Source: Pedobacter cryophilus
Lineage (GTDB): Bacteria > Bacteroidota > Bacteroidia > Sphingobacteriales > Sphingobacteriaceae
Assembly: GCF_005116455.1 (NCBI RefSeq)
Contig: NZ_SWBP01000001.1
Coordinates: forward strand, 868,001-932,000
Reading direction: 5' to 3'
DNA: 64,000 nucleotides
Shown: positions 3,621 through 62,331 of the stretch, in pieces
How the letters are laid out: the number at the start of each line of letters is the position of its first letter
How positions within the stretch are numbered: the first letter of the stretch is position 1
Notes under the pieces: generated by a model
Told to the model about the DNA's origin: nothing
The model's input: only the letters and a program-made list of their open reading frames with translations
Database searches by the model: none
Position numbers and translations under genes: made by a program

Positions 3621-3695
3621 GGGCATTTTAACACGCTGTTCGCTATATCTTTATCCCCGAAAAGGGATAAAGGATGCCGCTTCCATCGTTAATGC
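3621..3695 (+). repeat. Dispersed hairpin element, copy A
   Basis: The element begins gggcattttaacacgct and ends ccatcgttaatgc. Between the ends lies a perfect hairpin, ctttatccc / gggataaag, with a cgaaaa loop. It is the first of seven related copies in the window and lies between fic and ssb. An open reading frame across it on the plus strand has no support. Confidence 0.8.
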
Positions 3696-3745
3696 GAAAA
3701 AACTATCGAGAGTTGATAATTTAAAAAAGCGTACAAATTGTTTAG

Positions 3746-3780
3746 AGAAAAAAAAGCCATTCTCTTCAGAACAGCTTTTT
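3746..3780 (-). terminator. Rho-independent terminator of the mutY-ssb unit
   Basis: On the minus strand a 13-bp stem with two G-T pairs, a four-base gaag loop and a run of T residues follows the ssb stop codon by about 30 bases. Confidence 0.7.
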
Positions 3781-3810
3781 ACTTGTCTATTTTTAAATTA
3801 TTCACCCAAC

Positions 3811-4266
3811 CTAAAAAGGCAAATCATCATCGTCATTTCCTTTAGCAAATTCATCAGAAACAGTACTCTTAGGCGATGCCTCGCTAGTTTCATGATGTGT
3901 TGTTGCTTGGGATGGTGCAGACCCATTCTCAAAATCTGTTTTACGACCAAGTAGCGTAAAGTTCTCGGCCACCACTTCTGTGGTATATTTTTTATGCCCT
4001 TCCCTATCTTCAAAAGAACGGGTTCTTAACTTGCCTTCTATGTAAACTAACTTTCCTTTTTGCAGGTATTTTGCAGCAATATCAGCTAAACCACGCCACA
4101 TCACTATGTTATGCCATTCGGTTTGCTCAATTCTTTTGCCGTCTTTATTAAATGTTTCGGATGTTGCTAAAGGAAAACTTGCTACGGTTACATTTCCATC
4201 TAAATGCCTCACTTCGGGATCTTTCCCTAAATGCCCTACTAAAATAACTTTGTTAATTCCTGACAT
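3811..4266 (-). CDS. ssb: Single-stranded DNA-binding protein
   Basis: SSB coats single-stranded DNA in replication, repair and recombination and recruits partner proteins. The N-terminal OB fold starts MSGINKVILVGHLGKDPEVR and includes the typical WHNIVMW core around residue 51. A disordered Ser/Thr/Gln linker leads to the acidic tip DDDDLPF, the partner-binding tail. At 151 residues the length is normal. It lies 15 bases downstream of mutY on the same strand, so the two are probably co-transcribed, with a terminator just after ssb. Confidence 0.97.
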   Translation of the reverse strand: MSGINKVILVGHLGKDPEVRHLDGNVTVASFPLATSETFNKDGKRIEQTEWHNIVMWRGLADIAAKYLQKGKLVYIEGKLRTRSFEDREGHKKYTTEVVAENFTLLGRKTDFENGSAPSQATTHHETSEASPKSTVSDEFAKGNDDDDLPF

Positions 4267-4281
4267 AATTCCTGGTAAATT

Positions 4282-5337
4282 TTAATACAATTTAAAAAAG
4301 TTTTTCAAGAACTCAAAAATTAATTTGGGCTGTCCAAATTGCGATACATCATCAATATTTACCCAAAACCAGCCATTTTCTTGGGTGAATTCTGGGTTGA
4401 TATGCTCTATATGCACAAAACGGGCATAAATCCGCTGATGTGTTAAAATGTGCTTAATTTGATCTGAAACCGAATGAATAATAGGATCTCCTGAAAACCA
4501 GTCTTGGAAATTTTGATCAACAAATAGCTGATCTAATGATGTTTGTTCAATAAATTCTATAGAAGGTAAATCATGTAAGCCAGCCCAAATATCTTCGTTA
4601 CCTCTTCTTTTAATTAATATTTGTCCTTCTTTTATCGCTAAAAAGAAATAGAAATAACGCTCTCTAATTTTTAATTTTTTAAGCTTTACTGGTAATTCGT
4701 TCACTTTTTTGTGTTGGTAGGCAAAACAAGAAGTGATAAAAGGGCATTGCTCACAATTAGGGTTTTTAGGTTTGCATTGCAAAGCCCCAAACTCAATCAT
4801 GGCTTGGTTATGTTCGGCAGCGTTGGCTGGGTTAATTAATTCATCGGCAATTTCTTGAAACTGCTTTTTCCCTTTTCCGGTGTTTATGGGTGTATCTATT
4901 CCAAAATATCTGGCTAAAAGCCTGTAAACATTTCCATCAACCACGGCCTTTGCTTCATTAACAGAAAAAGAAGAAATTGCAGCGGCGGTATATTCGCCAA
5001 TTCCAGTTAATTTTATCAAATCAGCGTAAGCGGTAGGGAAAATGCCGTTAAAACTTTGCTCAATAACTTTTGCTGTCTTCAGCATGTTTCTCCCTCTGGA
5101 GTAATAGCCCAAACCTTGCCACATTCTTAAAATATCATCTTCAGATGCTGCTGCAAAATTTTTCACAGTTGGATATTGCTCAGAAAATCTCAGAAAATAA
5201 GGCATTCCTTGCTCAACTCTGGTTTGTTGCAGAATAATTTCCGACAGCCAAATCAAGTATGCATCAGTGGTATTTCGCCAGGGTAAATCTCTCTTATTAA
5301 TTCTATACCAGTTAATTAGCTCATTAGAAAATATCAT
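4282..5337 (-). CDS. mutY: A/G-specific adenine DNA glycosylase
   Basis: MutY removes adenine mispaired with 8-oxoguanine in base-excision repair. The catalytic Glu42 lies in QQTRVEQG and Asp134 in VVDGNV, with the helix-hairpin-helix LTGIGEYTAAA before it. Four cysteines at 188, 195, 198 and 204 (C-x6-C-x2-C-x5-C) bind the 4Fe-4S cluster. The C-terminal part is the NUDIX-like domain that recognises 8-oxoG. At 351 residues it is full length. It is read with ssb, 15 bases downstream, and diverges from the HU gene. Confidence 0.97.
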   Translation of the reverse strand: MIFSNELINWYRINKRDLPWRNTTDAYLIWLSEIILQQTRVEQGMPYFLRFSEQYPTVKNFAAASEDDILRMWQGLGYYSRGRNMLKTAKVIEQSFNGIFPTAYADLIKLTGIGEYTAAAISSFSVNEAKAVVDGNVYRLLARYFGIDTPINTGKGKKQFQEIADELINPANAAEHNQAMIEFGALQCKPKNPNCEQCPFITSCFAYQHKKVNELPVKLKKLKIRERYFYFFLAIKEGQILIKRRGNEDIWAGLHDLPSIEFIEQTSLDQLFVDQNFQDWFSGDPIIHSVSDQIKHILTHQRIYARFVHIEHINPEFTQENGWFWVNIDDVSQFGQPKLIFEFLKNFFKLY

Positions 5338-5450
5338 TCGTATCTTGTCGTTTTTGCAAATATAATAACCTTAAAAGTGCTTAATGGTTGTAATATAAGG
5401 GGTTGATATAAAAAAGTAGGTATTTATTTCCCTTTTACAACAAAAAGCAA

Positions 5451-5458
5451 TACTTTTG
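5451..5458 (+). promoter_or_regulatory. Candidate -7 promoter box of the HU operon
   Basis: The sequence tacttttg matches the Bacteroidota -7 consensus TAnnTTTG exactly and lies 52 bases before the HU start codon. A clear TTTG -33 box at the expected spacing is not seen. Confidence 0.45.
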
Positions 5459-5510
5459 CAACCCCAAATCGTCCGATAGGAATAGTAAATATAATTGAAA
5501 ATATAGGAAA

Positions 5511-5810
5511 ATGACAAAGGCAGAAATCATTGCAGAAATTGCAAGCAAAACCGGAATTGAGAAAGTAGATGTACAAGAAACTGTTGAAGCATTCTTCAAA
5601 GTAGTGAAGAGTTCTATGGTGAGCGGAGAAAACGTTTACGTTAGAGGTTTTGGAAGTTTTGTGGTAAAGAAAAGAGCAAAGAAAACTGCTAGAAATATTT
5701 CTAAAAATACTGCGATAATTATTCCTGAGCATTTTGTACCTAGCTTTAAACCAGCTAAAGTATTTGTTGATAAAGTGAAAATAGGAAACAAAAACAGCAT
5801 TAACGCTTAA
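5511..5810 (+). CDS. HU/IHF family DNA-bending protein
   Basis: A 99-residue histone-like protein that binds and bends DNA in the nucleoid. It opens MTKAEIIAEIASKTGIEKV, the usual HU helix pair, followed by the signature segment VRGFGSFVVKKRAKKTARN (residues 44-62) that forms the base of the DNA-clamping arm. The arm has IIIPEHFVPSFKP in place of the usual RNPqTG segment, a variant often seen in Bacteroidota. It heads a probable operon: the TPR gene starts 5 bases after its stop. Confidence 0.93.
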   Translation: MTKAEIIAEIASKTGIEKVDVQETVEAFFKVVKSSMVSGENVYVRGFGSFVVKKRAKKTARNISKNTAIIIPEHFVPSFKPAKVFVDKVKIGNKNSINA

Positions 5811-5815
5811 AATTT

Positions 5816-6664
5816 ATGTTAAAAACTAAACAATACATTTTATTAGGCTCGGTAGGAATATTGATGGCTGCCTTGTATAGTTTAGACATTAAAGGTTTAA
5901 TAAAACCAAAAGAAAACGAAGGAATGCAAAATACTGCAACCGCCGGTGATAAACCAGCGGCTGTAGTTTCTGCAGAAAGCGTATCTTCCCTTTCTAAGCA
6001 AATGATAAATGCCAGCCTTGCTGCTGATATTGAGAAATTAGAAGCTCAATTAAAAGATGCAAGTGGTGATAATGCAATTACACTTCAAAAAGAAATTGCT
6101 AAAAAATGGGACGATGTAAATCAACCCGCAGCAGCAGCTTTTGCTTATGAAGCCATTGCACAGGAAGAACAAACTTATCCAAACTGGCTAACTGCAGGGG
6201 ATAGATTTACCGAAGGTTATCAAAATTTTAGGGATACCACAGCAACAGCAGGCTTGTTAAATAAAGCCATAAATGCTTACAACAAAGCTTTAGAGCTTAA
6301 CCCAAAGAGTTTAGATGCGCAAACGGGATTAGGAGTAGCTTATGTTTCTGGCACTCAAGAGCCAATGAAAGGCATTAGCTTATTATTGGGAGTGGTAAAA
6401 GAAGATCCAAAAAACATTAAGGCTAATATGAATTTAGGCATGTTTTCTATGAAATCAGGTCAGTTTCAAAAAGCTTTAGACAGATTTAAAACGGTAATTT
6501 CCGTAAGTCCAACACCAGAAGCATGGTTTTATTTAGGAACCAGTTATGAGAATTTGGGAATGAAGTCTGAAGCTGTTTTAGCTTATCAAAAAAGTAAAGA
6601 ATTGGCAGCAGATCCTAGCCTTTCTGACTTTGTAGATAGAAAAATAAAAGAACTTAGTAATTAA
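5816..6664 (+). CDS. Membrane-anchored tetratricopeptide repeat protein
   Basis: A single hydrophobic segment at about residues 7-25 anchors the protein, with the rest predicted in the periplasm. After a linker and a helical region, TPR units run from about residue 145 to 270, with recognisable elements AINAYNKALELNPKSLDAQ, ANMNLGMFSMKSGQFQKAL and AWFYLGTSYENLGMKSEA. TPRs mediate protein-protein contacts; the partner is unknown. It lies between the HU gene (5 bases upstream) and a small ribosomal-type gene, so a general growth or envelope role is possible but not shown by the sequence. Confidence 0.85.
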   Translation: MLKTKQYILLGSVGILMAALYSLDIKGLIKPKENEGMQNTATAGDKPAAVVSAESVSSLSKQMINASLAADIEKLEAQLKDASGDNAITLQKEIAKKWDDVNQPAAAAFAYEAIAQEEQTYPNWLTAGDRFTEGYQNFRDTTATAGLLNKAINAYNKALELNPKSLDAQTGLGVAYVSGTQEPMKGISLLLGVVKEDPKNIKANMNLGMFSMKSGQFQKALDRFKTVISVSPTPEAWFYLGTSYENLGMKSEAVLAYQKSKELAADPSLSDFVDRKIKELSN

Positions 6665-6688
6665 ATAAAACATTAAAAATTTAAAATT

Positions 6689-6778
6689 ATGCCAAGCGGT
6701 AAAAAAAGAAAAAGACATAAAATGGCTACCCACAAGCGCAAAAAACGCTTAAGAAAAAACAGACACAAGAAAAAATAG
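6689..6778 (+). CDS. Small basic AURKAIP1/COX24-like protein, probably ribosome-associated
   Basis: A 29-residue reading frame, MPSGKKRKRHKMATHKRKKR followed by LRKNRHKKK, almost entirely Lys/Arg/His. The pattern KKRKRHKMxxHKxKKRxRxxR matches the COX24/AURKAIP1 domain, known from mitochondrial ribosomal protein mS38 and the mycobacterial ribosomal protein bS22. By analogy it should sit in the small ribosomal subunit (inference). It starts 24 bases after the TPR gene and is followed by a hairpin. Genes this short are often missed by annotation. Confidence 0.8.
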   Translation: MPSGKKRKRHKMATHKRKKRLRKNRHKKK

Positions 6779-6801
6779 GCTAATTAATTAGTCTCATTTA
6801 T

Positions 6802-6836
6802 AAAATAATTACATACAATTTGTGTGTAATTATTTT
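6802..6836 (+). terminator. Hairpin between the COX24-like gene and rng
   Basis: Twelve-base perfect arms aaaataattaca / tgtaattatttt enclose an 11-base loop. The stem is AT-rich and no clear T run follows, so it may be a weak terminator or a processing site in the rng leader. Confidence 0.4.
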
Positions 6837-6909
6837 GTTGTGTATATTATTTTCAATCATTCTTCTGTGGATTAAAAGATTTCAAAAATCTTTTCTAAAA
6901 AAGTAGCTG

Positions 6910-9714: not shown

Positions 9715-9760
9715 AGATTTGTTACCTCTTTAATAAAGCAGCAAGACAATTGACAAATCT
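9715..9760. repeat. 46-bp hairpin element, copy 1 (degenerate)
   Basis: Starts agatttgt and ends acaaatct, with exactly 46 bases between outer ends, the same length and ends as the copy at 29375-29420. Inner stem pairing is partly decayed here. Confidence 0.6.
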
Positions 9761-10019: not shown

Positions 10020-12044
10020 TTAATTAAGTTTTAATTTTTTTCCATTATAATCAAATAAGTAAAACTTATTATCTAGCAAAAAATATATCATCCCAATTTC
10101 TGGGCTTTTTGGCCTTTCTCTTATGATTTGAAAAATTTTATTTCCATATTTCTTAATCGCCCAACTCCTAGTTTCAACATCATTCAATCCGATTATAAAA
10201 AAATCAGCTTCTTGGCATTTTTCATCATATTTTATTTCTACAATTTCTTTACCTGTTTTGTCTATTAAGCCCCATTTACTGTTTAATTGAACCAAAAATC
10301 CAGTTGGTGTTCTCTCAATGTTATCGTATTTGTTTTCAAAAATCTCTTTGCCAGATTTATCCAAAACACTCCACTTACCGTTTAGTTGAGCCAAAAATCT
10401 ATCATCAATATGGGCTAATTCAAATTTTATTTCATCGTACTTCATTTCCAATACAGCCTTACCTGTTTTATCTATCACTCCCCACTTACCATTGGTTTTT
10501 ACTCGAGCAAAATTATCTGAAAAAAGATCCGCTTCATCATATTTTATAGGGATTACGATTTTACCTGTTTTATCAAGGAAGCCAAATTTGTTACTTAATT
10601 TCACTTTAACTAAACCACTAGCCTCATAAGGCTCACTTTCATATTCAATCGGTATGATTACATCTCCTTTTTTATTAATCATACCCCACTTCCCGTTTAA
10701 AGATACAGCCGCCACTTCGTTAATAAAGGGGGTAAATTTATCATAACCTGTTGGAGATATTATTTTACTTGAACCCACCATTTTACCACGGGCATCAATA
10801 GTGAATTGTTCATGATCTTTGTTTACTAATGCAATGGGCGATCTAAGTCTGAGTAGTGTATGCCCATCCTCCGGTATTTTTCCTGGATAATTGGGTGCAG
10901 GAATGTTAAAGCTGGTGACAATTTCATCAAATTGAAAATCTATCAATATAGCACCATTTTTATCAAGAAAACCCCAGTATTTACCTTTCTTCATCGCAAA
11001 ATACCCGTTAGATTCTGCTTTGTAATCATCGTACAATAAAGGTATCACAGCATATCCAAGCGTGTTTATATAGCCAACTTTTCCTTTTTGGGATACCAAG
11101 GCTAATCCGTCTTTAAAAAAAGATACGCGGTCATATTTTAATGCGATAACGACTTTCCCGTTTGGATCAATAAAACCTGATTTGCCATTCAGGATTACCT
11201 TAGCCAGACCATTATAAAAGACCGATGCATCATCATAAATCAAAGGAATCACCAGTTTTCCGCTAGCATTAATGTAACCAGATTTTCCTTTCATCTTTAC
11301 TGGCGCAAGTCCATTGCCGAAAGCATCGGCAGAGTCATATTTGGCTGGAATAACCATTTTTCCACTTTTATCAATAAACCCCCACAATTTACCTGTTTTT
11401 ACACTTGCTAGTCCTTCGCTAAACTGATGGATATCATTATATTCCCTCCCAAATTCGGTTCCTGCTATGTCCACAAATATCTTTTTACCCATTCTGGTTA
11501 CCATGGCAATACCTCCGTTGACCTCACTATTTAAATCATCATATTTAATAGATATCACTACTTTCCCGGCCTGATCTACAAAGCCCCAATAACCAAATTT
11601 TTTAACTCCAAAGTAGCTTGGAGTACTAAATTTCAACCCATCATATGCTAACGATAATACGATGTCATCGTCACTGTTCAAATACCCCCAATTGTAATTA
11701 AACCTTGATTGAACCATTCTTAAATTTCCATTGAGCTCGCCTAAAAATCCCAATTCGTAAACAACCAATCTTCTTTTAGCATCTGCCAATTCCTTTAGTT
11801 GACTGCTAGATGCGGGAGCAACATATCGTCGAGTTGTGGCAGCTTCCGTAGTGCTTGGGGAAGATTTAGGGGTGACAAATGGTTTGTTTTGTTTATTCCT
11901 AGCTTCCTCAGCGGCCTTGTCTGAACTTGTTCTCACCCCGTTTTTATCGTAAGCAGGTACATATTGAGCATTTATTTGTTGAACAGTTATTGTCGAGATT
12001 GATATTAAGGCGATAAAAAACCTTTTGACTGACAAATTTTTCAT
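10020..12044 (-). CDS. Secreted WG-repeat protein
   Basis: A signal peptide (FFIALISISTITVQQINAQ) is followed by a short Ser/Thr/Pro-rich linker and about a dozen repeats of the WG type, for example WGFIDKSGKMVIPAKYD and WGVIDKTGKAVLEMKYD, which should fold as a beta-rich binding scaffold in the periplasm or on the surface. No catalytic motif was recognised. It is 674 residues long. The gene is single and flanked by two copies of the aspS 3' end with its terminator, so it was probably inserted, or left between, during a recombination event at aspS. Confidence 0.88.
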   Translation of the reverse strand: MKNLSVKRFFIALISISTITVQQINAQYVPAYDKNGVRTSSDKAAEEARNKQNKPFVTPKSSPSTTEAATTRRYVAPASSSQLKELADAKRRLVVYELGFLGELNGNLRMVQSRFNYNWGYLNSDDDIVLSLAYDGLKFSTPSYFGVKKFGYWGFVDQAGKVVISIKYDDLNSEVNGGIAMVTRMGKKIFVDIAGTEFGREYNDIHQFSEGLASVKTGKLWGFIDKSGKMVIPAKYDSADAFGNGLAPVKMKGKSGYINASGKLVIPLIYDDASVFYNGLAKVILNGKSGFIDPNGKVVIALKYDRVSFFKDGLALVSQKGKVGYINTLGYAVIPLLYDDYKAESNGYFAMKKGKYWGFLDKNGAILIDFQFDEIVTSFNIPAPNYPGKIPEDGHTLLRLRSPIALVNKDHEQFTIDARGKMVGSSKIISPTGYDKFTPFINEVAAVSLNGKWGMINKKGDVIIPIEYESEPYEASGLVKVKLSNKFGFLDKTGKIVIPIKYDEADLFSDNFARVKTNGKWGVIDKTGKAVLEMKYDEIKFELAHIDDRFLAQLNGKWSVLDKSGKEIFENKYDNIERTPTGFLVQLNSKWGLIDKTGKEIVEIKYDEKCQEADFFIIGLNDVETRSWAIKKYGNKIFQIIRERPKSPEIGMIYFLLDNKFYLFDYNGKKLKLN

Positions 12045-29374: not shown

Positions 29375-29420
29375 AGATTTGTCAACTCTTTTGCAAGCTG
29401 GTAAGAGAGTTGACAAATCT
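29375..29420. repeat. 46-bp hairpin element, copy 2
   Basis: agatttgtcaactctt pairs with aagagagttgacaaatct around a short loop; only one base is bulged or mismatched. It lies just after the second DUF4197 gene and could act as its terminator, though no T run follows. Copy 1 is at 9715-9760. Confidence 0.7.
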
Positions 29421-34176: not shown

Positions 34177-34204
34177 CTAAGGGTTTTGTTCTAGGTAATT
34201 TTTT

Positions 34205-34278
34205 GCATTAACGATGGAAGCGGCATCTTTTTTGGTTTTTCACCAAAAAAATACAGCGTACAGCGTGTTAAAATGCCC
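34205..34278 (-). repeat. Dispersed hairpin element, copy B
   Basis: In the element's orientation (minus strand) it begins gggcattttaacacgct and ends ccatcgttaatgc, as copy A does, but the central stem is ttttttggt / accaaaaaa with a gaaaa loop. It lies between the converging ruvX and DUF5916 genes. Confidence 0.8.
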
Positions 34279-34337
34279 AAATAACTCTCTTAATTTACTT
34301 TTTCTTATCTGTAAATTAGCTTAAAAAGCGTTGAAAA

Positions 34338-34368
34338 TAAAAAAAACGCCCCACGTTCTGGGGCGTTT
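34338..34368 (-). terminator. Strong terminator of the DUF5916 gene
   Basis: Perfect 10-bp stem aaacgcccca / tggggcgttt with a 5-base loop; on the minus strand a long T run follows. It starts about 20 bases after the stop codon. Confidence 0.9.
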
Positions 34369-38406: not shown

Positions 38407-38460
38407 AAAAGCTGAATGCTTAAGGCAGAAAGCTTAAAGCTGATTTGCGAAATATTTGAA

Positions 38461-38489
38461 AGCCTGAGAATTTATTCTTGGGCTTTTTT
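38461..38489 (+). terminator. Rho-independent terminator of ffh
   Basis: Ten-base arms agcctgagaa / ttcttgggct (two G-T pairs) with a four-base loop, then a T run, 55 bases after the stop. Confidence 0.8.
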
Positions 38490-38495
38490 GTTTTT

Positions 38496-38571
38496 GGGCG
38501 TTTAAACACGCTATCCGTTACAATCTTTTGCTCCAAAAAAGCAAAAGGATTTTCACTGCTATCGTTAACGC
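38496..38571 (+). repeat. Dispersed hairpin element, copy C
   Basis: Begins gggcgtttaaacacgctatc and ends ctatcgttaacgc. The central hairpin is cttttgct / agcaaaag. It begins 7 bases after the ffh terminator. Confidence 0.8.
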
Positions 38572-38792
38572 AGAATTGGTGCTTTATAAATTCTATTGTA
38601 GGTTAAATAAATTGTGTTACTTTTAAATATCTATTTGAAGCACAATCTATTAATTGAAAACATGATCATTACTATCAATATCATCGAAAATAACATAGAC
38701 AAAACCCCCATAAGCTAACCAAAAACAGAGGGATAACGGGGGTTTTATTGCGCCTATATACAAGTTAGCAGGCATTATAAACGACTACTTAA
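38572..38792. other. Intergenic region with a long-loop hairpin at the island's left edge
   Basis: The arms aaaaccccc (38701-38709) and gggggtttt (38738-38746) enclose 28 bases; a terminator or a structured recombination site is possible. Close to the next gene is aagttagcaggcatt, resembling cgttagctgcaacc before the gene at 39377. No reading frame with support was seen. Confidence 0.45.
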
Positions 38793-40206: not shown

Positions 40207-40761
40207 ATGAGTACAAAATACAAGTTCAACGATCCTGAGGGTATTTATTTTGTTTCGTTTGCCGTAGTGGGTTGGATAGATGTTTTTACGAGGCAGGTTT
40301 ACAGAGATATACTTTTAGAAAGCTTAATTTTTTGTAGAAAAGAGAAAGGTTTGATGATTCATGCTTGGTTAATCATGAGTAACCATGTACATCTTATTAT
40401 CAGTAGAAAAGGAAATCAAAAACTAGAAGATATTATGAGAGATATGAAAAAGTATTCTGCTTATAGAATCTTAAAAGAAATAAAGGAAAGTTCAACAGAA
40501 AGCCGTAAAGAATGGATGCTATACTTATTTGCAAAAGCAGGCAAGCAGAATAGCAATAATACAAATTACCAATTTTGGAGGCAAGATAATCATCCAATAG
40601 AATTAGATTTTCACAGCAATATGTTTGAGCAGAAATTAAATTATCTTCATGAAAATCCTGTAGAAGCTGGGTTGGTGAAAAAAGCATCCAATTATTTATA
40701 CAGTAGTGCCATAGATTATGAAGAAGGTAAGGGATTGTTGGAAATCGATGTGTTGCAATAA
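40207..40761 (+). mobile_element. REP-associated tyrosine transposase (IS200/Y1 type)
   Basis: A single-strand transposase-like protein of 184 residues. The HUH metal site is in MSNHVHLII (about residues 58-66) and the probable nucleophile Tyr lies in KLNYLHENPVEAGLV (about 141). It starts KYKFNDPEGIYFVSFAVVGW, typical for this group in Bacteroidota. It sits between two inverted 46-bp REP hairpins, the arrangement expected for such enzymes, which are thought to mobilise or spread their REPs. All key residues are present, so it may be active. Confidence 0.9.
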
Positions 40762-40815: not shown

Positions 40816-40858
40816 TAGTGGGGAGAGTTTACAAAAAAAATGATAACCAAAAAATAAA

Positions 40859-41047
40859 CCATCCTAGTTTCAGTGTTCCTTTTTCAGGATCACTGAAATC
40901 TTTTCATGAAAAAAGAGGACTCTGTCCGGCAAATGGAAAGAAACGTTTTTAGAAAGTACATATTCGTAAATTTTAGCCTTTGATTGAATACGTTTTATCA
41001 AATACAGATTAGTCTTCCACCATAAATTTGCCTGCAAAAAAATATAT
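40859..41047 (+). repeat. Island direct repeat, copy 1
   Basis: The first 104 bases match copy 2 (41599) with only two differences; similarity then weakens but resumes around atcaaatacagattagtc. The repeat begins with a hairpin, tttcagtg / cactgaaa with further pairing inside, followed by a smaller one (tcttttcatgaaaaaaga). Copies 1 and 2 bracket the toxin-antitoxin pair. Confidence 0.85.
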
Positions 41048-41074
41048 ACTTAACTTGTATCAAAGAAAAACACC

Positions 41075-41311
41075 ATGACTAATACGGAGCTCAAAAAACA
41101 ACTGATGGAAAAGATTCAAAAGACAGAAAATCATAGTCTTTTAGAAGAGGCTTATCGACTTTTGGAACTCGAGACCAAAGATGAGGAAGTTTTTAAATTG
41201 GGTGAGCAACAAAAAGAGTCCATAGAAATTTCACGTCATCAGATTAAAAATGGTGAGTTTCTTACTGGTGAGCAAGCAAATAAAGAAATTGATGAATGGT
41301 TAGGAAAGTAA
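41075..41311 (+). CDS. Antitoxin of a ParE/RelE-type toxin-antitoxin pair
   Basis: A 78-residue acidic, helical protein (MTNTELKKQLMEKIQKTENH and onward), ending QIKNGEFLTGEQANKEIDEW, the toxin-wrapping tail seen in antitoxins of this class. It overlaps the toxin gene by 16 bases. The pair is enclosed by two copies of the island direct repeat. It should neutralise the toxin and repress the operon, but no separate DNA-binding motif was recognised. Confidence 0.8.
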   Translation: MTNTELKKQLMEKIQKTENHSLLEEAYRLLELETKDEEVFKLGEQQKESIEISRHQIKNGEFLTGEQANKEIDEWLGK

Positions 41312-41592
41312 TTTGGTCTTTAAGAGCTCAGCAAGAAAGAAAACACATTTTAACATACTGGCAAACCAGAACAAAATCTAATATCTACAGCAAAAAATTA
41401 AATCAACTTTTTATTGAGGCAATAAATATTATTAGTGATTTTCCTCAAATTGGAAAATTAACGGATGATCAAAATGCAAGAATAAAAATAGTTAAAGATT
41501 ACTTCATCATTTATGAATATTTTGAAACTCAAATATTGATATTGTCAATTTTTGATAGCCGACAAGATCCTGCGAAAATTGATTTTATTTAA
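41296..41592 (+). CDS. ParE/RelE-family toxin
   Basis: A 98-residue protein with the family pattern: MVRKVIWSLRAQQERKHILT at the start, a helical hairpin with YSKKLNQLFIEAINIISDFP, the marker PQIGKLT, and C-terminal beta strands VKDYFIIYEYFE and ILILSIFDSRQDP. RelE relatives cut mRNA on the ribosome while ParE relatives poison gyrase; the sequence alone does not separate these. The start overlaps the antitoxin gene. All core segments are present, so it is probably functional. Confidence 0.85.
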   Translation: MVRKVIWSLRAQQERKHILTYWQTRTKSNIYSKKLNQLFIEAINIISDFPQIGKLTDDQNARIKIVKDYFIIYEYFETQILILSIFDSRQDPAKIDFI

Positions 41593-41598
41593 TAGAAG

Positions 41599-41773
41599 CC
41601 ATCCTAGTTTCAGTGTTCCTTTTTCAGGATCACTGAAATCTTTTCATGAAAAAAGAGGACTCTGTCCGGCAAATGGAAAGAAACTTTTTTAGAAAGCACA
41701 TACTTTTTGCTTTATACTTTTCATCAAATACAGATTAGTCATCCACCCACAAATTTGCCTGTAAGAAATATAA
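41599..41773 (+). repeat. Island direct repeat, copy 2
   Basis: Begins ccatcctagtttcagtg only 7 bases after the toxin stop codon. It is almost identical to copy 1 for 104 bases and includes the same hairpins and the segment gtccggcaaatggaaag. Confidence 0.85.
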
Positions 41774-43865: not shown

Positions 43866-43880
43866 AGCCACTACTCATTC

Positions 43881-43974
43881 TGGTTTCAGTGTTCCTTTTT
43901 AAGGATCACTGAAATCTTTTCATAAAAAAAGAGGAAGTTGTCCGGCAAATGGAAAGAAGTGTTTTTAGAAAATA
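43881..43974 (+). repeat. Island direct repeat, copy 3
   Basis: Starts ggtttcagtgttcc 16 bases after the AraC gene stop. It keeps the hairpin, the aaaaaaagagga stretch and gtccggcaaatggaaag but differs from the other copies at several bases and ends sooner. It closes the aldo/keto reductase-AraC module. Confidence 0.8.
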
Positions 43975-44198
43975 TTTTAGTGCTTTAACTTATCTTGAAA
44001 TGAGTTTACAAAACTAAACAAGATTAACATATAACGCAGGGCCCTCTGCGAGAGAGACCCTGCTTAGACAATACACTACATTCCATAAGATTCTGAAATG
44101 AGTTCAGAATAACAAAGCTCGAAAAAGTCAAAGTAATCCTTACAATTTACTGATGCCATTTCTTAAACTCGCTGGTATCTTTGTCGAGTTTTAAAATC
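43975..44198. other. Intergenic region with two short hairpins at the island's right edge
   Basis: One hairpin is GC-rich, gcaggg (44036-44041) pairing with ccctgc (44058-44063); the other is attctgaa-atgag-ttcagaat (44090-44110). Both resemble short interspersed palindromes. No gene is visible before the metallophosphoesterase. Confidence 0.5.
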
Positions 44199-45395: not shown

Positions 45396-45406
45396 GTTGC
45401 TTTTTT

Positions 45407-45480
45407 GCGTTAGGGATTGCAATGAAAATCCTTTTTGTTTTTCACAAAAAGATTGTAATGTAAAGCCCGCTCGAACGCCC
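45407..45480 (-). repeat. Dispersed hairpin element, copy D
   Basis: In its own orientation it begins gggcgttcgagcgggcttta and ends caatccctaacgc. The central hairpin is ctttttgt-gaaaa-acaaaaag. It lies between the convergent metallophosphoesterase and recQ genes. Confidence 0.78.
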
Positions 45481-45496
45481 TCATTAATTAATTTTT

Positions 45497-49641: not shown

Positions 49642-49642
49642 T

Positions 49643-56171: not shown

Positions 56172-56187
56172 TCTCATTTTAAGTTTT

Positions 56188-56280
56188 GTATTAGGGATTG
56201 ACGTGGAAATCATTTTTGTTTTTTACAAAAATATTGGAGCAAAAGCCCGACCCCAGATTTTTTTTTCTGGGGTAATGCCC
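56188..56280 (-). repeat. Dispersed hairpin element, copy E
   Basis: In its own orientation it starts gggcattacccc and ends caatccctaatac. It contains an extra hairpin, ccccag / ctgggg, near the first end, and the central hairpin atttttgt-aaaaa-acaaaaat. It lies between the convergent DUF1501 and MscS genes, overlapping the latter's last base or stop region. Confidence 0.72.
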
Positions 56281-57425
56281 TAATCTACCTTTTGCAAAGG
56301 AATTCCTTTACTGCCAAACTCATGATATAAAGTTCTGGATGGAAAAGCGAAATCGGCTTCGTTTTTTAATACAATATCCATTACGCTATAATTAATTTCC
56401 TCTTTAATTTTCATGTACATATTGTAATCTACAATTTCAATAAAATACAAAACCTGAATGTTTAAAGATGAATCGCCAAAAGAATCAAAAGTTACTAAAG
56501 TATCTTGTGTAGTTTCTTTATGTGTTTGAATATAATCTGTTATTTCTTCTGAGATCTTTCTAATCACAGCAGGAGATGTGCCATACAAAACACCCACGTT
56601 AAACTTCACTCGTCTTAAATTTCTTAAGGTTAAATTTTCTAACGGACTATCAATCATTTTTTTATTTGGGATGACTACTAAAGTTTTATCCATAGTTCTT
56701 AATAGCGTACTTCTAAAGCCCACTTTCTCTATCACACCATCGTAACCTGCTACATTCACTAAATCGCCCACAACAAAGGGTTTATCTGCAAAAATGGTAA
56801 AAGAGCCTAGTAAGTTTTGTAAAGTATCTTGAGCGGCTAAAGCAATTGCTAAACCACCAATACCCAAACCAGCAACAATGGTAGCAACATTCATATTAAA
56901 TACAGCGCCCATCACTACAAAAACGCCTAAAATAATAGCTATAATTTTGCTCAATTCCCTTAAAAAAGGAACCATTTGGTCGTCTGTTTTAGATTCTGTT
57001 AAACTAGCCCGATAAGAAAACACATGAGAAATAAAATCTATGGTTCTTAATAAAATTCTAAAGGCAGAAATTATAATGAGGAATAAAAATACCTTGTCTA
57101 AAACCTGAATAATAGTAATGGTATATAAAGATTTGCCAACTGTTCTTTTAAATACCACCACCTCTAAAGGGTAATTTAATTGGTTAATGGCGACATAAAA
57201 AACAATAATGCTGATTAAAAATTCTATAGGTTTTACCAGTAAGTCTAAAAATTTATCAATTTTAATTTCTTTAGAAAACTTATGGAATAAGGTAAATAGT
57301 GATTTACTTATAATTTTAGAAATCACCTTTTTAAGAATCAATCCCAAAAGAATAATCCCAATAAAAAGCAGGTAACTTTTAATGGTATTTCCCCAAACTA
57401 TCTGATTTAGAAATTGTGTGTCCAT
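56280..57425 (-). CDS. Mechanosensitive ion channel (MscS family)
   Basis: Channel that opens under membrane tension and protects against osmotic shock. Four or five hydrophobic segments lie in the first 200 residues; the pore helix NVATIVAGLGIGGLAIALAA (about 177-196) has the Gly/Ala pattern of TM3, followed by QDTLQNLLGSFTIFADKPF and the beta domain VGDLVNVAGYDGVIEKVGFR. At 381 residues it is a medium-sized member. Its stop codon adjoins repeat copy E. It is a single gene downstream of rplS on the same strand, separated by a terminator. Confidence 0.94.
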   Translation of the reverse strand: MDTQFLNQIVWGNTIKSYLLFIGIILLGLILKKVISKIISKSLFTLFHKFSKEIKIDKFLDLLVKPIEFLISIIVFYVAINQLNYPLEVVVFKRTVGKSLYTITIIQVLDKVFLFLIIISAFRILLRTIDFISHVFSYRASLTESKTDDQMVPFLRELSKIIAIILGVFVVMGAVFNMNVATIVAGLGIGGLAIALAAQDTLQNLLGSFTIFADKPFVVGDLVNVAGYDGVIEKVGFRSTLLRTMDKTLVVIPNKKMIDSPLENLTLRNLRRVKFNVGVLYGTSPAVIRKISEEITDYIQTHKETTQDTLVTFDSFGDSSLNIQVLYFIEIVDYNMYMKIKEEINYSVMDIVLKNEADFAFPSRTLYHEFGSKGIPLQKVD

Positions 57426-57513: not shown

Positions 57514-57528
57514 AATATTTTTAAAGTA

Positions 57529-58237: not shown

Positions 58238-58276
58238 AAATAAAATGAATTAGAATGTTTCATTTAAATTTACGCA

Positions 58277-58951
58277 TTAATCCAGCAAATCGGGTCTTCT
58301 TTCTTGTGTTCTTTTTAAAGCTTCCTCATAACGCCAATTCTCTATTTTAACAGGGTCTCCGCTTAATAAAATATCAGGTACTTTATGCCCTTTCCAATCG
58401 GCGGGTCTGGTGTATAAAGGTGCATCCAGCAGTTCTCCTTGGAAAGAATCAGACAGCGCAGAAGTCTCGTCATTTAAAACACCCGGAATCAATCGCACTA
58501 CCGCATCTACCACAATAGCAGCGGGCAGCTCTCCGCCAGATAAAACATAATCTCCTACAGATATTTCACGAGTCACATAAATATCTCTTATACGCTGGTC
58601 TATGCCTTTGTAATGGCCGCAAAGAATAATGATGTTCTCTTTTCCTGATAGCTCATTAGCCATCTCCTGGTTTAAAGTGACCCCATCAGGCGTCATAAAA
58701 ATAATTTCATCGTAAACCCTTTCAGCTTGTAGTTTTTCTATGCAATTAGAAAAAGGCTCAATTTGCATTACCATGCCACTGCCGCCCCCGTAAGGATAAT
58801 CATCTACGCTTTTTTGCTTATTATTAGTGTATTCCCTCAAATTATGGACATGAATTTCTGCTATTCCTTTTTTTTGCGCTCTTTGTAAAATAGAATGTGC
58901 AAACGGACTTTCTAATAAGCCAGGTAAAACAGTAATGATATCAAAACGCAT
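58277..58951 (-). CDS. trmD: tRNA (guanine-N1)-methyltransferase (G37)
   Basis: Methylates G37 of several tRNAs, preventing frameshifting. [37 protein letters not shown], the SAM-knot segment [16 protein letters not shown] (about residues 108-123) and [16 protein letters not shown] are diagnostic. At 224 residues it is normal. rimM lies upstream on the same strand with repeat copy F between them, so the element may lie within the transcript. Confidence 0.97.
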
Positions 58952-58994
58952 ATTTTTAATTTACGATTTTTTTGAATGATGATTTATAATTTTT

Positions 58995-59091
58995 GGGCGT
59001 TTTAACAGGCTTTCCGCTAAATCTTTTTATTGCCGTCCTTCGACTCCGCTCAGGATGACAATAAAAAGGATACCGCTTCAATCCTTAACGC
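58995..59091 (+). repeat. Dispersed hairpin element, copy F, with nested element
   Basis: Starts gggcgttttaacaggctttc and ends caatccttaacgc. The central stem ctttttattg / caataaaaag carries, in its loop, a second element, gtccttcgactccgctcagg and five more bases (59035-59059). It is between rimM and trmD. Confidence 0.8.
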
Positions 59092-59115
59092 AAATTCAGG
59101 GTCACTAAAAATCAA

Positions 59116-59640
59116 TTACTCCAAATACAAATCCAGTAAACCTTCTGGTAAATCTAAAGAGATGGTATTGGCTTTAATGTCAATTTCTAAAATAAAAGCT
59201 TCATTTAACGGAATTAAAACTTCCTTTTCCTGATAAATAATGGTTGCTATAAATTGCTGCGGAAACTCTTTTACTTCTATAATTTCTCCTAATAAACCTT
59301 CATGTTCATCAGTAGCAATAAAACCTTGTAAATCTGTAAACGAAAATTCTTCTTTCTTCTTTTTAGGCTTTAGCCTATTTGGAAGGTATATTTTCTTTTT
59401 AGTAATGTTTTGCGCCTTATCAATATGATCTATATCCTCAAAAGAGAAATAGCCTACTTGTGGCATAGGTATTTTATAAGCAGAAACAAAAAAGGGAACC
59501 AATTTGCTATTCACCTCAACAAAAACCGAACTAATTTTGAGTTTCTCAGGCTCAGGATAGGTAAAAGAAACCTGTACTTCTCCCTTTAAACCTCTGGTTT
59601 TTGTGATGTAACCAATTTCAAAACACTCTTCAATTTTCAT
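59116..59640 (-). CDS. rimM: Ribosome maturation factor RimM
   Basis: RimM helps assemble the head of the 30S subunit. The N-terminal RimM domain starts ECFEIGYITKTRGLKGEVQV and the C-terminal PRC-barrel contains FSFTDLQGFIATDEHEGLLG and VLIPLNEAFILEID. At 174 residues it is complete. It is followed by repeat F and trmD. The usual upstream partner rpsP is absent; instead an ABC permease gene lies 41 bases upstream. Confidence 0.93.
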   Translation of the reverse strand: MKIEECFEIGYITKTRGLKGEVQVSFTYPEPEKLKISSVFVEVNSKLVPFFVSAYKIPMPQVGYFSFEDIDHIDKAQNITKKKIYLPNRLKPKKKKEEFSFTDLQGFIATDEHEGLLGEIIEVKEFPQQFIATIIYQEKEVLIPLNEAFILEIDIKANTISLDLPEGLLDLYLE

Positions 59641-59681
59641 TCAAATCTTAATTTGATGCAAAAATACAGATTTGAGACCTA

Positions 59682-61370
59682 TTAATCCGCCATTTCTAAG
59701 CTTTCCCAAGTTTCTTTTTTATACGAAGCAAAAGAAATCCATGCAAATAAAGTCATTAATGCAGCGCTTATCCATATAACGGTTTCCCATTTTGCCGCCC
59801 AATTATGTAAAAAACCAAAAGCTATTGGGATGAGCATAATAAAAAAGGTAATAAATGTTCTTCCTCCTTTTTTAATATTAATAGGCTGAGAAAAGGGTAA
59901 ACCTTTTACCTGAAAAACAGCCACTAATAAGCCATAAATAATACCCACCATAAAGGCTAAAATTAAATCGTTTATCACTTTTGTACCCCAAAAAGTTAAG
60001 CTAAATATAGAAACCACTAAAAAGTAAGGAACGTAATATTTGGTAATTACTGCTTTAAACATTCCTGCTAAAATTTTACCGGGCTGTTGGTGTGGGGTAG
60101 TAAAAAATATCCACGATGCTTTGTATTTCTCTGTGAGGCTCACATATTGTAAAACAGTAGTGAGCACAAAACTGGTAAGATAAATAAGTAGGATATACAT
60201 ATCTCCTGATAGTAAAGATTGCCAGTTTTCACTAATGCTGCCTTTTTTACCTATAAAACCGAAATACACAAAATATACAGGGACATAAGCAAAAGAAGGA
60301 TAAACTTTCACTTTAAAATCGCGGTAGCGAGAAGATAATAACCAAGTGAGTTTAAAGCCTGCATTTTCTATAGGATCTGGCGCTAAGCTTTTTGCTAAAA
60401 CATTCATAAATCCTTTAGAAGCTCCTTTTCCTTCTGAAGAAATAATAGTACCATCATCGCCACTGCCGCTGATAGAAGATAGCTTTTGATTAAAACCTGG
60501 CGCCAATACTTTTACCACTAAATACAATGATAATACAGGAGAAAACACCGCTAACAAAGCATAAGCTACCGTTAATAAATCTGTAGATTTAAAATTAACA
60601 GCCATTTCATGCAATGCGGCTATCCAAACCGGGGGTACAATGGCTAAAATTTTAATGCTCTTAATTTCAAAATTTTGTAGCGTACTGGCGGTCATTAAGC
60701 GGGGTAAGGTGTAATAAGCCGCAAAAATGAGTACCGAGAAAATGATTTGAAAGTAAGAGATAAAGTCTTTAAACTTTTGCGGACTGGTTACTTTTAAAAC
60801 AATTAAGTAAATGATATTTACTAAAAAAATGCTGAGTACAGTTGCTATAAAAACTTCTAAAATAAAAACCAAACTAGCTATTGGACCTTCCCAAATAAAG
60901 CTATAAATCATCCCCGAAAGGGAAATTGCCAAAGCCATTTTTGTGGTATGAATGCCAATATGTAAAATTCTGGAAATGGTAAATGTGCTATCAGAAACCG
61001 GGCGAGGCAAAATAATATAATTGTCTCTTACGTCTATTAATACACTGGTGAAATCAGAAATTAAAGTGATGGCCAGCATCACCATAAAAGCCGAAAAGTA
61101 AATGGTATGGCCTACAAAAGGTTGTTTGGCAATTACTAAAAGAGCGGTAAAAAATAAGCCGGTAATCCCTAAAAAAAACATGGTAAGCCAGCTAGAGTGG
61201 TTCACTTCTTTTTTTTGTTTTTGTCTTTGTTGGTTATAAACGTTTGGTCTGCGGTCGTCCATTTTCATTTTGGTGGTTAAAATGATGCGGAGTTGATTTG
61301 GATCTACGCCAAAACGCACAAAAACGCCTTTAAAAAGCAATACGAAATTGATGATGTATTTATTAAACAT
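59682..61370 (-). CDS. ABC transporter permease
   Basis: A 562-residue integral membrane protein with about 12 hydrophobic segments, in two groups separated by a soluble stretch at about residues 295-345 that contains SSEGKGASKGFMNVLAKSLA. It pairs with the ATPase gene 6 bases upstream, so together they form an ABC-2-like exporter. Substrate is unknown. The N-terminal 60 residues are cytoplasmic and basic (MDDRRPNVYNQQRQKQKK). Confidence 0.82.
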   Translation of the reverse strand: MFNKYIINFVLLFKGVFVRFGVDPNQLRIILTTKMKMDDRRPNVYNQQRQKQKKEVNHSSWLTMFFLGITGLFFTALLVIAKQPFVGHTIYFSAFMVMLAITLISDFTSVLIDVRDNYIILPRPVSDSTFTISRILHIGIHTTKMALAISLSGMIYSFIWEGPIASLVFILEVFIATVLSIFLVNIIYLIVLKVTSPQKFKDFISYFQIIFSVLIFAAYYTLPRLMTASTLQNFEIKSIKILAIVPPVWIAALHEMAVNFKSTDLLTVAYALLAVFSPVLSLYLVVKVLAPGFNQKLSSISGSGDDGTIISSEGKGASKGFMNVLAKSLAPDPIENAGFKLTWLLSSRYRDFKVKVYPSFAYVPVYFVYFGFIGKKGSISENWQSLLSGDMYILLIYLTSFVLTTVLQYVSLTEKYKASWIFFTTPHQQPGKILAGMFKAVITKYYVPYFLVVSIFSLTFWGTKVINDLILAFMVGIIYGLLVAVFQVKGLPFSQPINIKKGGRTFITFFIMLIPIAFGFLHNWAAKWETVIWISAALMTLFAWISFASYKKETWESLEMAD

Positions 61371-61376
61371 AAAAAA

Positions 61377-62156
61377 TTAGTTTAAAGCGTTTAATACATC
61401 ATTTGCTTCTTTATTAGATTCTTCTTTGCCGGTAAGTTTGGCAAAAATGCTTTCTAATGTTTGGTTTCCACCGGCTTTTAAATCTTCAAAAGAACCATCG
61501 GCAATAATTTCTCCGTTGGCAATCAGTAATATTCTGTCTGATACTTTTTCTACCACATCCATCATGTGCGAGCAATAGAAAATGGTTTTTCCTTCTTTGG
61601 CTAAAAGAGCAATTAATTCTTTTACCATAATCACCGCATTGGCATCTAAACCAGAAAGCGGCTCATCTAAAATGATAATTTTTGGGTTGTGTATAATACC
61701 AGATATTAACAACACTTTTTGGCGCATTCCTTTAGAAAAAGTATCCATACGTTGGTCGGCATTGCTACCAATTCCAAAAGCGTTTAAGAGTTTTAGGGCT
61801 CTATCTGCAATATGGTCTTCTTCCATGCCGTAAAGTTTACCCACAAAATCAAGGTATTCTAAAGGGGTTAATACTTCGTATATTTCGGCGTTTTCTGGTA
61901 CATAACCAATCTGACTTTTAATGCTTACCACATCATCTTTAATGCTTTTGTTGTACATGAATACTTCTCCTTCAAAGTCAGGAATTAAACCAGTTAAAAT
62001 TTTAACTGTGGTTGATTTTCCCGCTCCGTTTGGTCCTATATAACCAATCACCTGGCCCGGATAAATTTCTAAATTAATGCCTTTTAGAACTTGTTTTTCG
62101 CCGTAGCTTTTCTTTAAATTTCTAATGCTGATGATAGGTAGTATTTCTGATTCCAT
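61377..62156 (-). CDS. ABC transporter ATP-binding protein
   Basis: The ATPase of the exporter encoded with the adjacent permease. Walker A is GPNGAGKSTT (about residues 42-51), the signature motif is the variant FSKGMRQKVLL, Walker B KIIILDEPLSGLD, and the switch His lies in IFYCSHMMDVV. At 259 residues it is a single-domain subunit. The tail (LTGKEESNKEANDVL) is charged. It heads the transcript of the pair; repeat copy G lies upstream. Confidence 0.94.
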   Translation of the reverse strand: MESEILPIISIRNLKKSYGEKQVLKGINLEIYPGQVIGYIGPNGAGKSTTVKILTGLIPDFEGEVFMYNKSIKDDVVSIKSQIGYVPENAEIYEVLTPLEYLDFVGKLYGMEEDHIADRALKLLNAFGIGSNADQRMDTFSKGMRQKVLLISGIIHNPKIIILDEPLSGLDANAVIMVKELIALLAKEGKTIFYCSHMMDVVEKVSDRILLIANGEIIADGSFEDLKAGGNQTLESIFAKLTGKEESNKEANDVLNALN

Positions 62157-62224
62157 GTTGTTGTTTATTTTTTAAACCTGAATTAGATTATTGATTTTGC
62201 GCTTAGTTACAGAATTGTTTTTTT

Positions 62225-62331
62225 GCGTTAACGATTTAGTGAAAACCCTTTTTTGTCCTTCGACTCCGCTCAGGACGACAACAAAAGATTGTAATGGATA
62301 GCGTGTTATCCCGATAGCTATCAGGACGCCC
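62225..62331 (-). repeat. Dispersed hairpin element, copy G, with nested element
   Basis: In its own orientation it starts gggcgtcctgatagctatcg and ends ctaaatcgttaacgc. The first part includes an extra palindrome gatagctatc, and the loop of the central hairpin carries the same nested element as copy F (62255-62279), here in the opposite orientation relative to its host. It lies between divergent genes. Confidence 0.8.

Follow-up and report, generated by a model that had tools for sequence, protein, structure and literature searches.

Seven intergenic elements (copies A to G) dispersed over a 64,000-nucleotide stretch of Pedobacter cryophilus DNA, the whole of which we call the window, belong to the Flavo-1 family, Rfam RF01705. 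The family itself is already known, as a catalogued motif whose function is unexplained. We favour reading Flavo-1 as a dispersed, non-autonomous DNA repeat that folds in a strand-specific way, rather than as a transcribed RNA, and put the probability of this reading at roughly 0.55. Copies lie scattered between genes in either orientation, and their numbers differ greatly within one genus. Their pairing is almost purely Watson–Crick, and some sites retained across related species carry a replaced apical hairpin within a conserved frame and conserved flanks. Neither the DNA-repeat reading nor hairpin replacement for Flavo-1 was found in the literature searched.

The curated RF01705 cut-off was passed by six of the seven window copies (A–F), with E-values of 4e-10 to 1.9e-6; copy G fell under the gathering threshold (31.1 versus 42 bits), with an E-value of 1.2e-4 in a 601-base search. 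None of the seven matches is due to chance. Copy A (3617–3699, minus strand) scored 56.2 bits with RF01705 and 97.2 bits with R1, our own model, which was built from copies including A; its ends are GCATTAACG and GTTAAAATGCCC and its apical stem is CTTTATCCC. Copy B (34201–34282, plus strand; 55.5 bits with RF01705, 99.6 with R1) lies at the convergent gene pair RuvX/DUF5916, and copy D (45403–45484, plus strand; 57.5 and 80.1 bits) likewise has convergent genes on either side. Copy C occupies 38492–38575 on the minus strand (58.4 and 92.3 bits). Copy E (56184–56284, plus strand; 45.0 bits with RF01705, 36.9 with R1 over 56184–56258) carries an additional hairpin, CCCCAGA...TCTGGGG, at its 3′ junction. 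Copy F (58991–59095, minus strand; 53.1 and 85.3 bits) sits in the rimM–trmD gap, as identified with Pfam, and its apical loop holds the nested palindrome CCTGAGCGGAGTCGAAGG, the core of which was located by pattern search at 59039–59053 (plus strand). Copy G (62221–62335, plus strand; 29 bits with R1 over 62221–62316) is flanked by divergent genes and has palindromes in its apical loop (core at 62259–62273, plus strand, from the same kind of search) and at its 3′ junction. All seven copies were found at the positions and in the two orientations that the initial annotation had reported, and the hairpin arms that it quoted were found in the printed copies; the question it left open, whether the family had been described, is answered by Flavo-1. 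The ends it gave as shared are variable, as other genomic copies end in CTAAACC/GACTAGCG or TTTAGCCC/GGAATAGCT.

Each copy forms a long imperfect hairpin composed of an outer stem, a middle stem, two 3 × 3 internal loops and an apical hairpin, with a mostly conserved unpaired C. The outer internal loop reads G-N-A/G-N-A in 30/30 aligned copies, and the element carries its conserved internal loops on one strand, as would also be expected of an RNA. In a structure-free alignment of 30 genomic copies, 98.9% of cells were paired and both-sided changes occurred at 14 of 22 pairs (84 cells compared with 22 in shuffles), a test that is partly circular because the pairs were picked after inspecting the same columns. 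Shifting the pairing partner lowered the paired cells to 38–61%, and the counted pairs match most stems of Rfam's independent consensus. Across the 30 copies, columns 16–68 hold U-A 16 times, G-C 10 times and A-U 4 times; columns 12–72 hold C-G 25, G-C 4 and U-A 1; and columns 7–81 hold G-C 24 and A-U 6. The earlier inference of compensatory change, with pairing rather than sequence being kept, is borne out by these genome-wide copies and by low G-U counts. The covariation that had been placed in the central hairpin is present there but is not restricted to it, as the three column pairs above show for the middle and outer stems.

G-U pairs occupied 26 of 1889 cells in 91 matches from the P. 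cryophilus genome, compared with 16 of 192 in tRNA acceptor and T stems (Fisher, 3e-7), and 20 of 1344 cells in 93 Flavobacterium-like matches (Fisher against the same stems, 1.5e-6). G-U is thus about six times rarer in Flavo-1 than in tRNA stems, a figure drawn from alignments fitted to the structure and from a comparison set of 16 tRNAs. Half of the G-U cells in Flavobacterium (10 of 20) fall at a single pair. Our strict pattern scanner, which requires Watson–Crick pairs (it finds five of the seven window copies and has no matches in 20 plain shuffles), was kept out of the G-U counts themselves. Model R2, which gave rise to the Flavobacterium alignment A4, was built from 35 sequences taken from the strict scanner or another earlier search, and the Flavobacterium count may lean low because A4 derives from Watson–Crick-selected sequences. 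In the own-genome alignment, A2, 18 of 26 A-C cells fall in one column pair, which we take as a register shift. Minimum-free-energy RNA folds contained 10% G-U compared with 14% in tRNA and did not separate the two; DNA folds of the seven window copies were modestly stable (z of −0.6 to −3.9).

The P. cryophilus genome holds 116 Flavo-1 matches, 86 of them above cut-off. The initially estimated density of about one per 9 kb applies in the 64-kb window but not to the genome, which averages about one match per 34 kb. The window is a local excess, with seven copies compared with 1.9 expected (P = 0.003, which is optimistic because the window was chosen by a reader). All 18 genomes surveyed in the genus, P. 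cryophilus included, hold Flavo-1, with 1 to 113 matches each; five hold 1 to 9. Nearly identical cores occur in different flanks within one genome (for example, L174 and L189), and copies are scattered rather than arrayed. A lagging-strand mechanism might predict a replication-strand bias. With the origin placed at dnaA and the terminus set to half the length, no lagging-strand insertion bias was significant, either in a first set (56 versus 37, p = 0.06) or in a second set of 31 positions among the matches listed (15 versus 16). Phage or plasmid cargo was set aside, as one natural Flavobacterium-type copy used as query had no match among 72,556 plasmid records and 50,697 phage records. Two exact Flavo-1 patterns match 14 and 9 stretches of viral contigs.

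Empty sites, the search for which had been proposed as a check, were found in relatives at sites E, F and G and at Flavobacterium loci. Site E holds no copy in any of the three relatives that keep both neighbours, and by eye these three carry a different hairpin there. At site F, two of three relatives have a copy with a different inner hairpin, one of the matches being weak (23 bits), and the third has none; site G is empty in the one testable relative. Loss is part of the pattern, because some copy-free sites retain a fragment of the Flavo-1 3′ end. No target-site duplication, clean insertion boundary or terminal inverted repeats of an insertion sequence were seen at filled/empty pairs, where the flanks have diverged.

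Replacement of the apical hairpin was observed among 81 Flavobacterium-like loci, which gave 80 ortholog pairs at six sites when flank identity of at least 85% was required; unparsable ortholog pairs, 38 of 292, were dropped. Mean identity over the 80 pairs was 87.8% in the flank, 82.7% in the frame and 58.3% in the apical part, where low-complexity sequence depresses the value. The apical part was less than 65% identical in 56 of the 80 pairs, and 31 of these had a stem of at least 6 bp in both members, at three sites; a single site contributes 56 of all 80 pairs and, of the 31 with such stems, 28. In the nine pairs with flanks at least 90% identical, the apical part was below 65% in five (one of which, L248/L246, is mis-parsed, its boundary still being wrong) and 92–100% identical in four. 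The clearest replacement is that of L251 compared with L255 and L241, where the flanks are 84–98% identical per side and both arms differ in L251. Palindromes also lie within the element: 16 of 40 genomic clusters of TTCGACTCCGCTCAG fall inside Flavo-1 matches compared with 0.1 expected from genome length, an expectation that we estimate to be perhaps ten times higher against intergenic DNA alone, and loops and junctions hold further nested palindromes.

If Flavo-1 is a DNA repeat, copies would spread, and tips be exchanged, while the element is single-stranded, either through a structure-recognising enzyme, possibly lost in some lineages, or during replication, by template switching and conversion from one copy to another. 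No selection for the benefit of the host would be needed. A further proposal, which we offer tentatively and regard as somewhat unlikely, is that Flavo-1 is a novel kind of mobile DNA structure in which the tip of a fixed hairpin frame is a hairpin cassette exchanged as a unit between loci by such a single-strand mechanism (enzyme or template switching), that palindromes enter preferentially through loops and bulges, and that Flavo-1 covariation reflects DNA copying and not RNA selection. Cassette exchange would change both arms together; its probability is reduced by the fact that most replaced tips come from a single site.

The copies might instead be bidirectional transcription terminators or 3′-end stabilisers that the host keeps near gene ends, which we consider unlikely. 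Copies lie nearer gene ends than starts (median 56 versus 154 nt), convergent gaps are mildly enriched (25 of 99 placed copies compared with 11 of 84 copy-free gaps, p = 0.04), and three relatives have, by eye, another hairpin at site E. However, 18 of the 99 placed copies are divergent (the other 56 being tandem, 22 sense and 34 antisense), in a context count that covers 101 of the 116 matches and uses our own gene calls. An intrinsic-terminator scan, for a GC-rich stem with a T run immediately behind it, had no match on six of the seven window copies and overlapped only copy C, with a weak match and a poor T tail. Separate terminator-like hairpins lie near three of the seven copies, 51 nt from A, 61 nt from B and 4–5 nt from C (38458–38487, terminator scan), and such a hairpin directly precedes two of ten printed copies in genome G331 (a duplicated pair) and one of ten in genome G057. 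Together with the mixed gene orientation, these separate hairpins disfavour the 3′-end RNA structure that the initial annotation had listed as an option. The proximity of copies to gene ends runs against disfavouring it.

A structured non-coding RNA acting in trans or as a leader, as the Rfam label has it, is in our judgement improbable. Flavo-1 entered the literature in 2010 as a candidate RNA; it is rated likely RNA, not cis-regulatory, in PMC2864571, and PMC9029176 places it among the most abundant small-RNA families listed. The strong covariation and the conserved loops on one strand are consistent with an RNA, as are several 5′ transcribed regions of Flavobacterium psychrophilum that coincide with Flavo-1 matches in an RNA-seq study (PMC9723704). 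The same study, however, describes matches in sense or antisense alike, with no preferred sense and many outside transcripts. Mixed gene orientation, few G-U pairs, up to 113 matches per genome and large swings within the genus also argue against RNA and are better accommodated by a DNA repeat.

Less probable still is that the copies are REP/REPIN-like elements mobilised by a REP-associated (Y1) transposase. Flavo-1 copies are small dispersed palindromes, six of eight close pairs in the P. cryophilus genome are head to head, and Y1 genes are resident there; the window's RAYT gene is about 1.6 kb away from copy C, and a broken IS200-type frame is some 100 bp away from one Flavo-1 copy. However, among 36 Y1 loci scanned (five resident), the stretch fetched contained a clear Flavo-1 copy at two and a weak match (18–20 bits) at two more, and genome G138 (listed completeness 100%) has no Y1 match although it has at least 11 Flavo-1 matches. 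The fetched stretches of three resident RAYT-like genes contained no Flavo-1 copy, copy C being just outside one of them (L034), and at the other two (L035 and L036) other repeats surround the gene. GGAG is a REP foot tetranucleotide. Neither it nor GTAG, named as the REP tetranucleotide in the title of PMC3733652, was seen by eye at the foot of the printed copies. With Flavo-1 rarely near Y1 genes and G138 lacking them, a Y1/REP transposase as the mover is unsupported.

The copies are extragenic, lie in either orientation and keep their pairing, which fits sites bound by a nucleoid or topology protein (gyrase, IHF-like) such as have been proposed for BIMEs, but we think this very unlikely here, as conserved mismatched loops would be needless for a duplex-binding protein and five genomes of the genus hold so few matches. 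Integron attC-like recombination sites, which the conserved ends, single folded strand and variable tip recall, are unsupported and barely credible, as copies are not arrayed and no integron integrase exceeded the cut-off in 14/14 genomes (12 have weaker matches, of the sort expected from tyrosine recombinases).

Five of the eight close pairs were printed: four enclose 16 to 341 bp, and one encloses 742 bp with two frames that read as ordinary genes by inspection. Genome G331 has three evenly spaced copy pairs, and blastn shows no common DNA suggesting a shared element between copies. These short stretches and the G331 pairs speak against an autonomous element framed by copies. No mobilising enzyme for Flavo-1 was found at the Y1 loci, among integron integrases or in the DNA between close copies. 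Copy-number swings and copy-free sites nevertheless make a non-autonomous mobile element the best fit of the three options first proposed.

Since 2010 this candidate RNA has had no function assigned to it. Should Flavo-1 be a DNA element, its listing as an abundant sRNA is misleading, and covariation alone is no proof of RNA function. A repeat with replaceable hairpins would then offer a system in which to study the spread and change of palindromes in bacterial chromosomes.

Rfam files Flavo-1 as an sRNA gene, and its stems and internal loops are the same as in the window copies; where the Rfam model leaves bases unpaired, however, copies of the common form here have an outer stem (GCGTT/AACGC) and, optionally, a hairpin at the junction. 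Flavo-1 resembles attC sites in its conserved ends, one folded strand and variable tip, but differs in the lack of arrays and of an integron integrase over cut-off in the 14 genomes. As with MITEs, Flavo-1, read as non-autonomous, is present or absent at orthologous sites, whereas no insertion-sequence terminal inverted repeat or target-site duplication was seen at the diverged filled/empty pairs and its tip is more variable than its frame. REP, BIME and REPIN elements with their RAYTs are likewise small, extragenic, dispersed palindromes, sometimes in head-to-head pairs, but Flavo-1 is longer, has no GTAG foot that we could see and is not tied to RAYT; the RAYT-like gene at L036 has its own GTAG-type repeats. 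The STAXI motif of Enterobacteriales is an RNA candidate for which the authors considered a single-stranded DNA role and finally preferred RNA because of its UUCG loops (PMC2864571). Flavo-1 is like STAXI in being an RNA candidate with a possible role as single-stranded DNA.

The seven elements that the initial annotation had located in the window, on both strands, were present at the positions it gave: copies B (34205), D (45407), E (56188) and G (62225) on the forward strand and A (3621), C (38496) and F (58995) on the reverse. An Rfam scan identified them as Flavo-1 (RF01705), an already known family. Six of the seven passed the gathering score, and copy G reached 31.1 bits against a required 42. 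The whole genome of P. cryophilus held 116 matches at an E value of 1 or better, 86 of them above the cut-off; the density is about one match per 34 kb, and the window is locally rich.

We aligned 30 copies from this genome without reference to structure and tested a structure of 22 pairs. Paired bases filled 98.9% of cells and 14 of the 22 pairs had changed on both sides, bearing out the earlier claim that the hairpin arms covary. The covariation score was 0.393, compared with 0.132 after shuffling and no more than 0.089 with the partner slid, in a test that was not blind because the pairs were picked after inspection of the same columns. Most of these stems also appear in Rfam's own consensus. 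Flavo-1 consists of an outer stem, a middle stem, two 3 × 3 internal loops, an unpaired C (25 of the 30 copies) and an apical hairpin. The outer stem is GCGTT/AACGC in this genome and, by eye, AGC/GCT in many Flavobacterium-type copies. The outer internal loop reads G-N-A/G-N-A in all 30 copies; the inner loop holds G on one side and A on the other, the full G-N-A/G-N-A being a minority form. We fetched 80 loci around one conserved protein, mostly titled as Flavobacterium with some metagenome-assembled genomes otherwise labelled, which together with locus L195 gave 93 matches in 81 loci. Among Flavobacterium-like matches, the pair before GAT was represented by all four Watson–Crick types (C-G 36, T-A 23, A-T 16, G-C 11, G-U 2, others 3).

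Flavo-1 has been catalogued in Bacteroidetes as a likely but not cis-regulatory RNA (PMC2864571, in the part available) and, in the available text of PMC9029176, among abundant sRNA families with no function given. The pairing was nearly all Watson–Crick: 1812 of 1889 cells in 91 aligned matches from P. cryophilus, with 26 G-U and 26 A-C cells (a single column pair accounting for 18 of the A-C), and 1289 of 1344 cells in the 93 Flavobacterium-like matches, with 20 G-U (half at one pair) and 4 A-C. In 16 tRNAs from the fetched loci, 16 of the 192 acceptor- and T-stem cells were G-U; the deficit in Flavo-1 was significant, in a comparison where the alignments lean toward the structure and the tRNA control is small. 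Energy folds failed to separate the two classes (10.2% G-U for Flavo-1 versus 14.0% for tRNA). Orientation relative to genes was mixed: by our own gene calls, the 101 copies comprised 25 with convergent neighbours, 18 with divergent neighbours and 56 in tandem gaps (22 in sense, 34 in antisense), plus one at an edge and one overlapping a predicted frame. In the F. psychrophilum transcriptome, the passages available of PMC9723704 describe Flavo-1 hits as equally sense and antisense, many beyond transcribed regions, and several 5′ regions as overlapping hits. We conclude that Flavo-1 is most likely a dispersed DNA repeat rather than an RNA gene.

Copies lie nearer to gene ends (median distance 56 nt) than to gene starts (154 nt). 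In the window, separate terminator-like hairpins occur near copies A (3751–3780), B (34344–34368) and C (38458–38487); only copy C of the seven overlaps a terminator-like match, and its T tail is poor. Two of ten copies inspected from genome G331 (L174 and L183, a duplicated pair, 92% identical over 152 bp) come immediately after a terminator-like hairpin, as does L193 of genome G057.

No integron integrase scored above cut-off in the 14 genomes searched. Copies showed no significant replication-strand bias. Six tyrosine transposase (Y1) matches are resident in P. cryophilus, three of which we took as resembling REP-associated tyrosine transposases (RAYTs), two above and one below the NF047646 cut-off. 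The gene in loci L035 and L036 is surrounded by repeats other than Flavo-1. We scanned 36 Y1 loci, of which five are resident: L141 and L149 carry a clear Flavo-1 copy, and L127 (19.8 bits) and L032 (18.2 bits) a weak match. About 1.6 kb separate copy C, which falls just beyond locus L034, from the window's RAYT gene, and about 100 bp separate another copy from a broken IS200-type frame (L031). No Y1 match turned up in genome G138, which is listed as 100% complete and holds at least 11 Flavo-1 matches. Separately, the RAYT-like gene at L036 980–2052 (contig C15 of P. cryophilus) has paired GTAG-type palindromes (GTAGGGATAACCCTCGGGTTATCC) on both sides, a REP-like arrangement. The RAYT gene of the window (40207–40761; NF047646) is followed at 40851–41731 by two copies (87% identical) of a 141-nt repeat, with a third (72%) at 43867–44007; the first two flank a putative toxin–antitoxin pair of small frames.

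All 18 genomes of the genus, including P. cryophilus, contained at least one match (range 1 to 113). In an even draw of the phylum, 53 of 395 genomes had matches at an E value of 1e-5, 32 of them in one family (f4); 11 candidates were scored per genome, so per-genome counts are floors. One genus of that family (g9) is probably Flavobacterium, judging from a protein of its member G316 that is 99% identical to Flavobacterium records. Genome G331 contains near-identical cores with differing flanks, such as L174 and L189. Of eight close pairs (less than 2.6 kb apart; for example C14:4764–4943 and C1:339999–340199) in P. cryophilus, six have a head-to-head arrangement (minus, then plus), two of them with spacings of only 16 and 24 bp.

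Flavo-1 is absent from some orthologous sites. The genes around copy E are kept in three relatives of the genus, none with a match; by eye these carry other hairpins. At the site of copy F, between rimM and trmD, two of three relatives have a match (49.6 and 23 bits), with differing inner hairpins and flanks that look alike, and the third has none; the sole testable relative at the site of copy G also has none. A 3′ fragment remains at some copy-less sites, indicating that losses occur. Among the Flavobacterium-like loci, flank alignments covered 90 nt or more on each side in 292 ortholog pairs, of which 254, at 9 sites, could be parsed. Flank identity reached 85% or more in 80 pairs (6 sites); across these, identity averaged 87.8% in flanks, 82.7% in the frame and 58.3% in the apical part. 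The apical part fell below 65% in 56 of the 80, and in 31 of these 56 both versions form a stem of 6 bp or longer. One site contributes 56 of the 80 pairs and 28 of the 31 with good stems; two others contribute 1 and 2 of the 31. Where flanks were at least 90% identical (9 pairs), five apical parts were below 65% (one mis-parsed) and four at 92–100%; tips are therefore sometimes replaced and sometimes kept. In L219 a mosaic tip retains, by eye, the 3′ arm of its relatives and looks like partial conversion. How copies spread and change we infer. In the boldest reading, a fixed hairpin frame might carry a tip cassette exchanged between loci by a single-strand mechanism; to this we give a probability of about 0.22, lowered from 0.25 because a recount found that much rests on one site. 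One intergenic site of related Flavobacterium species (L195 and L212–L231, region before ATGAAAGTATACG) contains, by eye, several further palindrome-like repeats alongside Flavo-1.

Other palindromes nest within Flavo-1. The core TTCGACTCCGCTCAG, with one mismatch allowed, occurs 75 times in P. cryophilus, and these occurrences form 40 clusters. Flavo-1 matches, about 0.26% of the genome, contain 16 of the clusters. Eight or more extra bases occurred in the apical loop of 32 of 91 aligned matches, at the 3′ junction of four and nowhere else; placement is the model's, a stem-expecting model would favour these places, and partial matches mask some junction inserts. By eye, ATCC on the 5′ arm is followed in five copies by a hairpin, which the model assigns to the loop. 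The TTCGACTCCGCTCAG core is repeated four-fold in L074 (~1210–1297), as tandem 24-bp units with the CTGAGCGGAGTCGAA palindrome, within what is by eye an apparent further Flavo-1 hairpin. Another dispersed palindrome, AGATTTGTCAACTCT...AAGAGAGTTGACAAATCT, occurs in the window at 9715–9760 and 29375–29420, and a related palindrome sits inside the apical loop of the Flavo-1 copy at L112 2525–2658. A third interior type, GATACCGGC...GCAGTATGA, has a similar frame in low-scoring copies of P. cryophilus (C16:41935, C1:560907, C14:4764, C1:699453 and C1:590041); it may be an older, inactive layer, since two orthologous copies, in L049 and L052, hardly differ. Elsewhere in the window, a 674-aa reverse-strand frame (10020–12044) runs across degenerate ~100-bp DNA repeats and probably encodes a repeat protein.

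Searching the literature for palindromic repeats dispersed in Flavobacterium yielded nothing relevant, judged by title. The available part of a study of GTAG and CGTC repeats (PMC3733652) names Bacteroidetes among the phyla having CGTC repeats; the word Flavobacterium is absent from its text. We found no statement of Flavo-1 as a DNA element or with an exchanged tip in one library, searched mainly through listings and passages. Compared with the Rfam model, which leaves its first and last eight positions unpaired, the outer stem and the optional 3′-junction hairpin are additions to RF01705.
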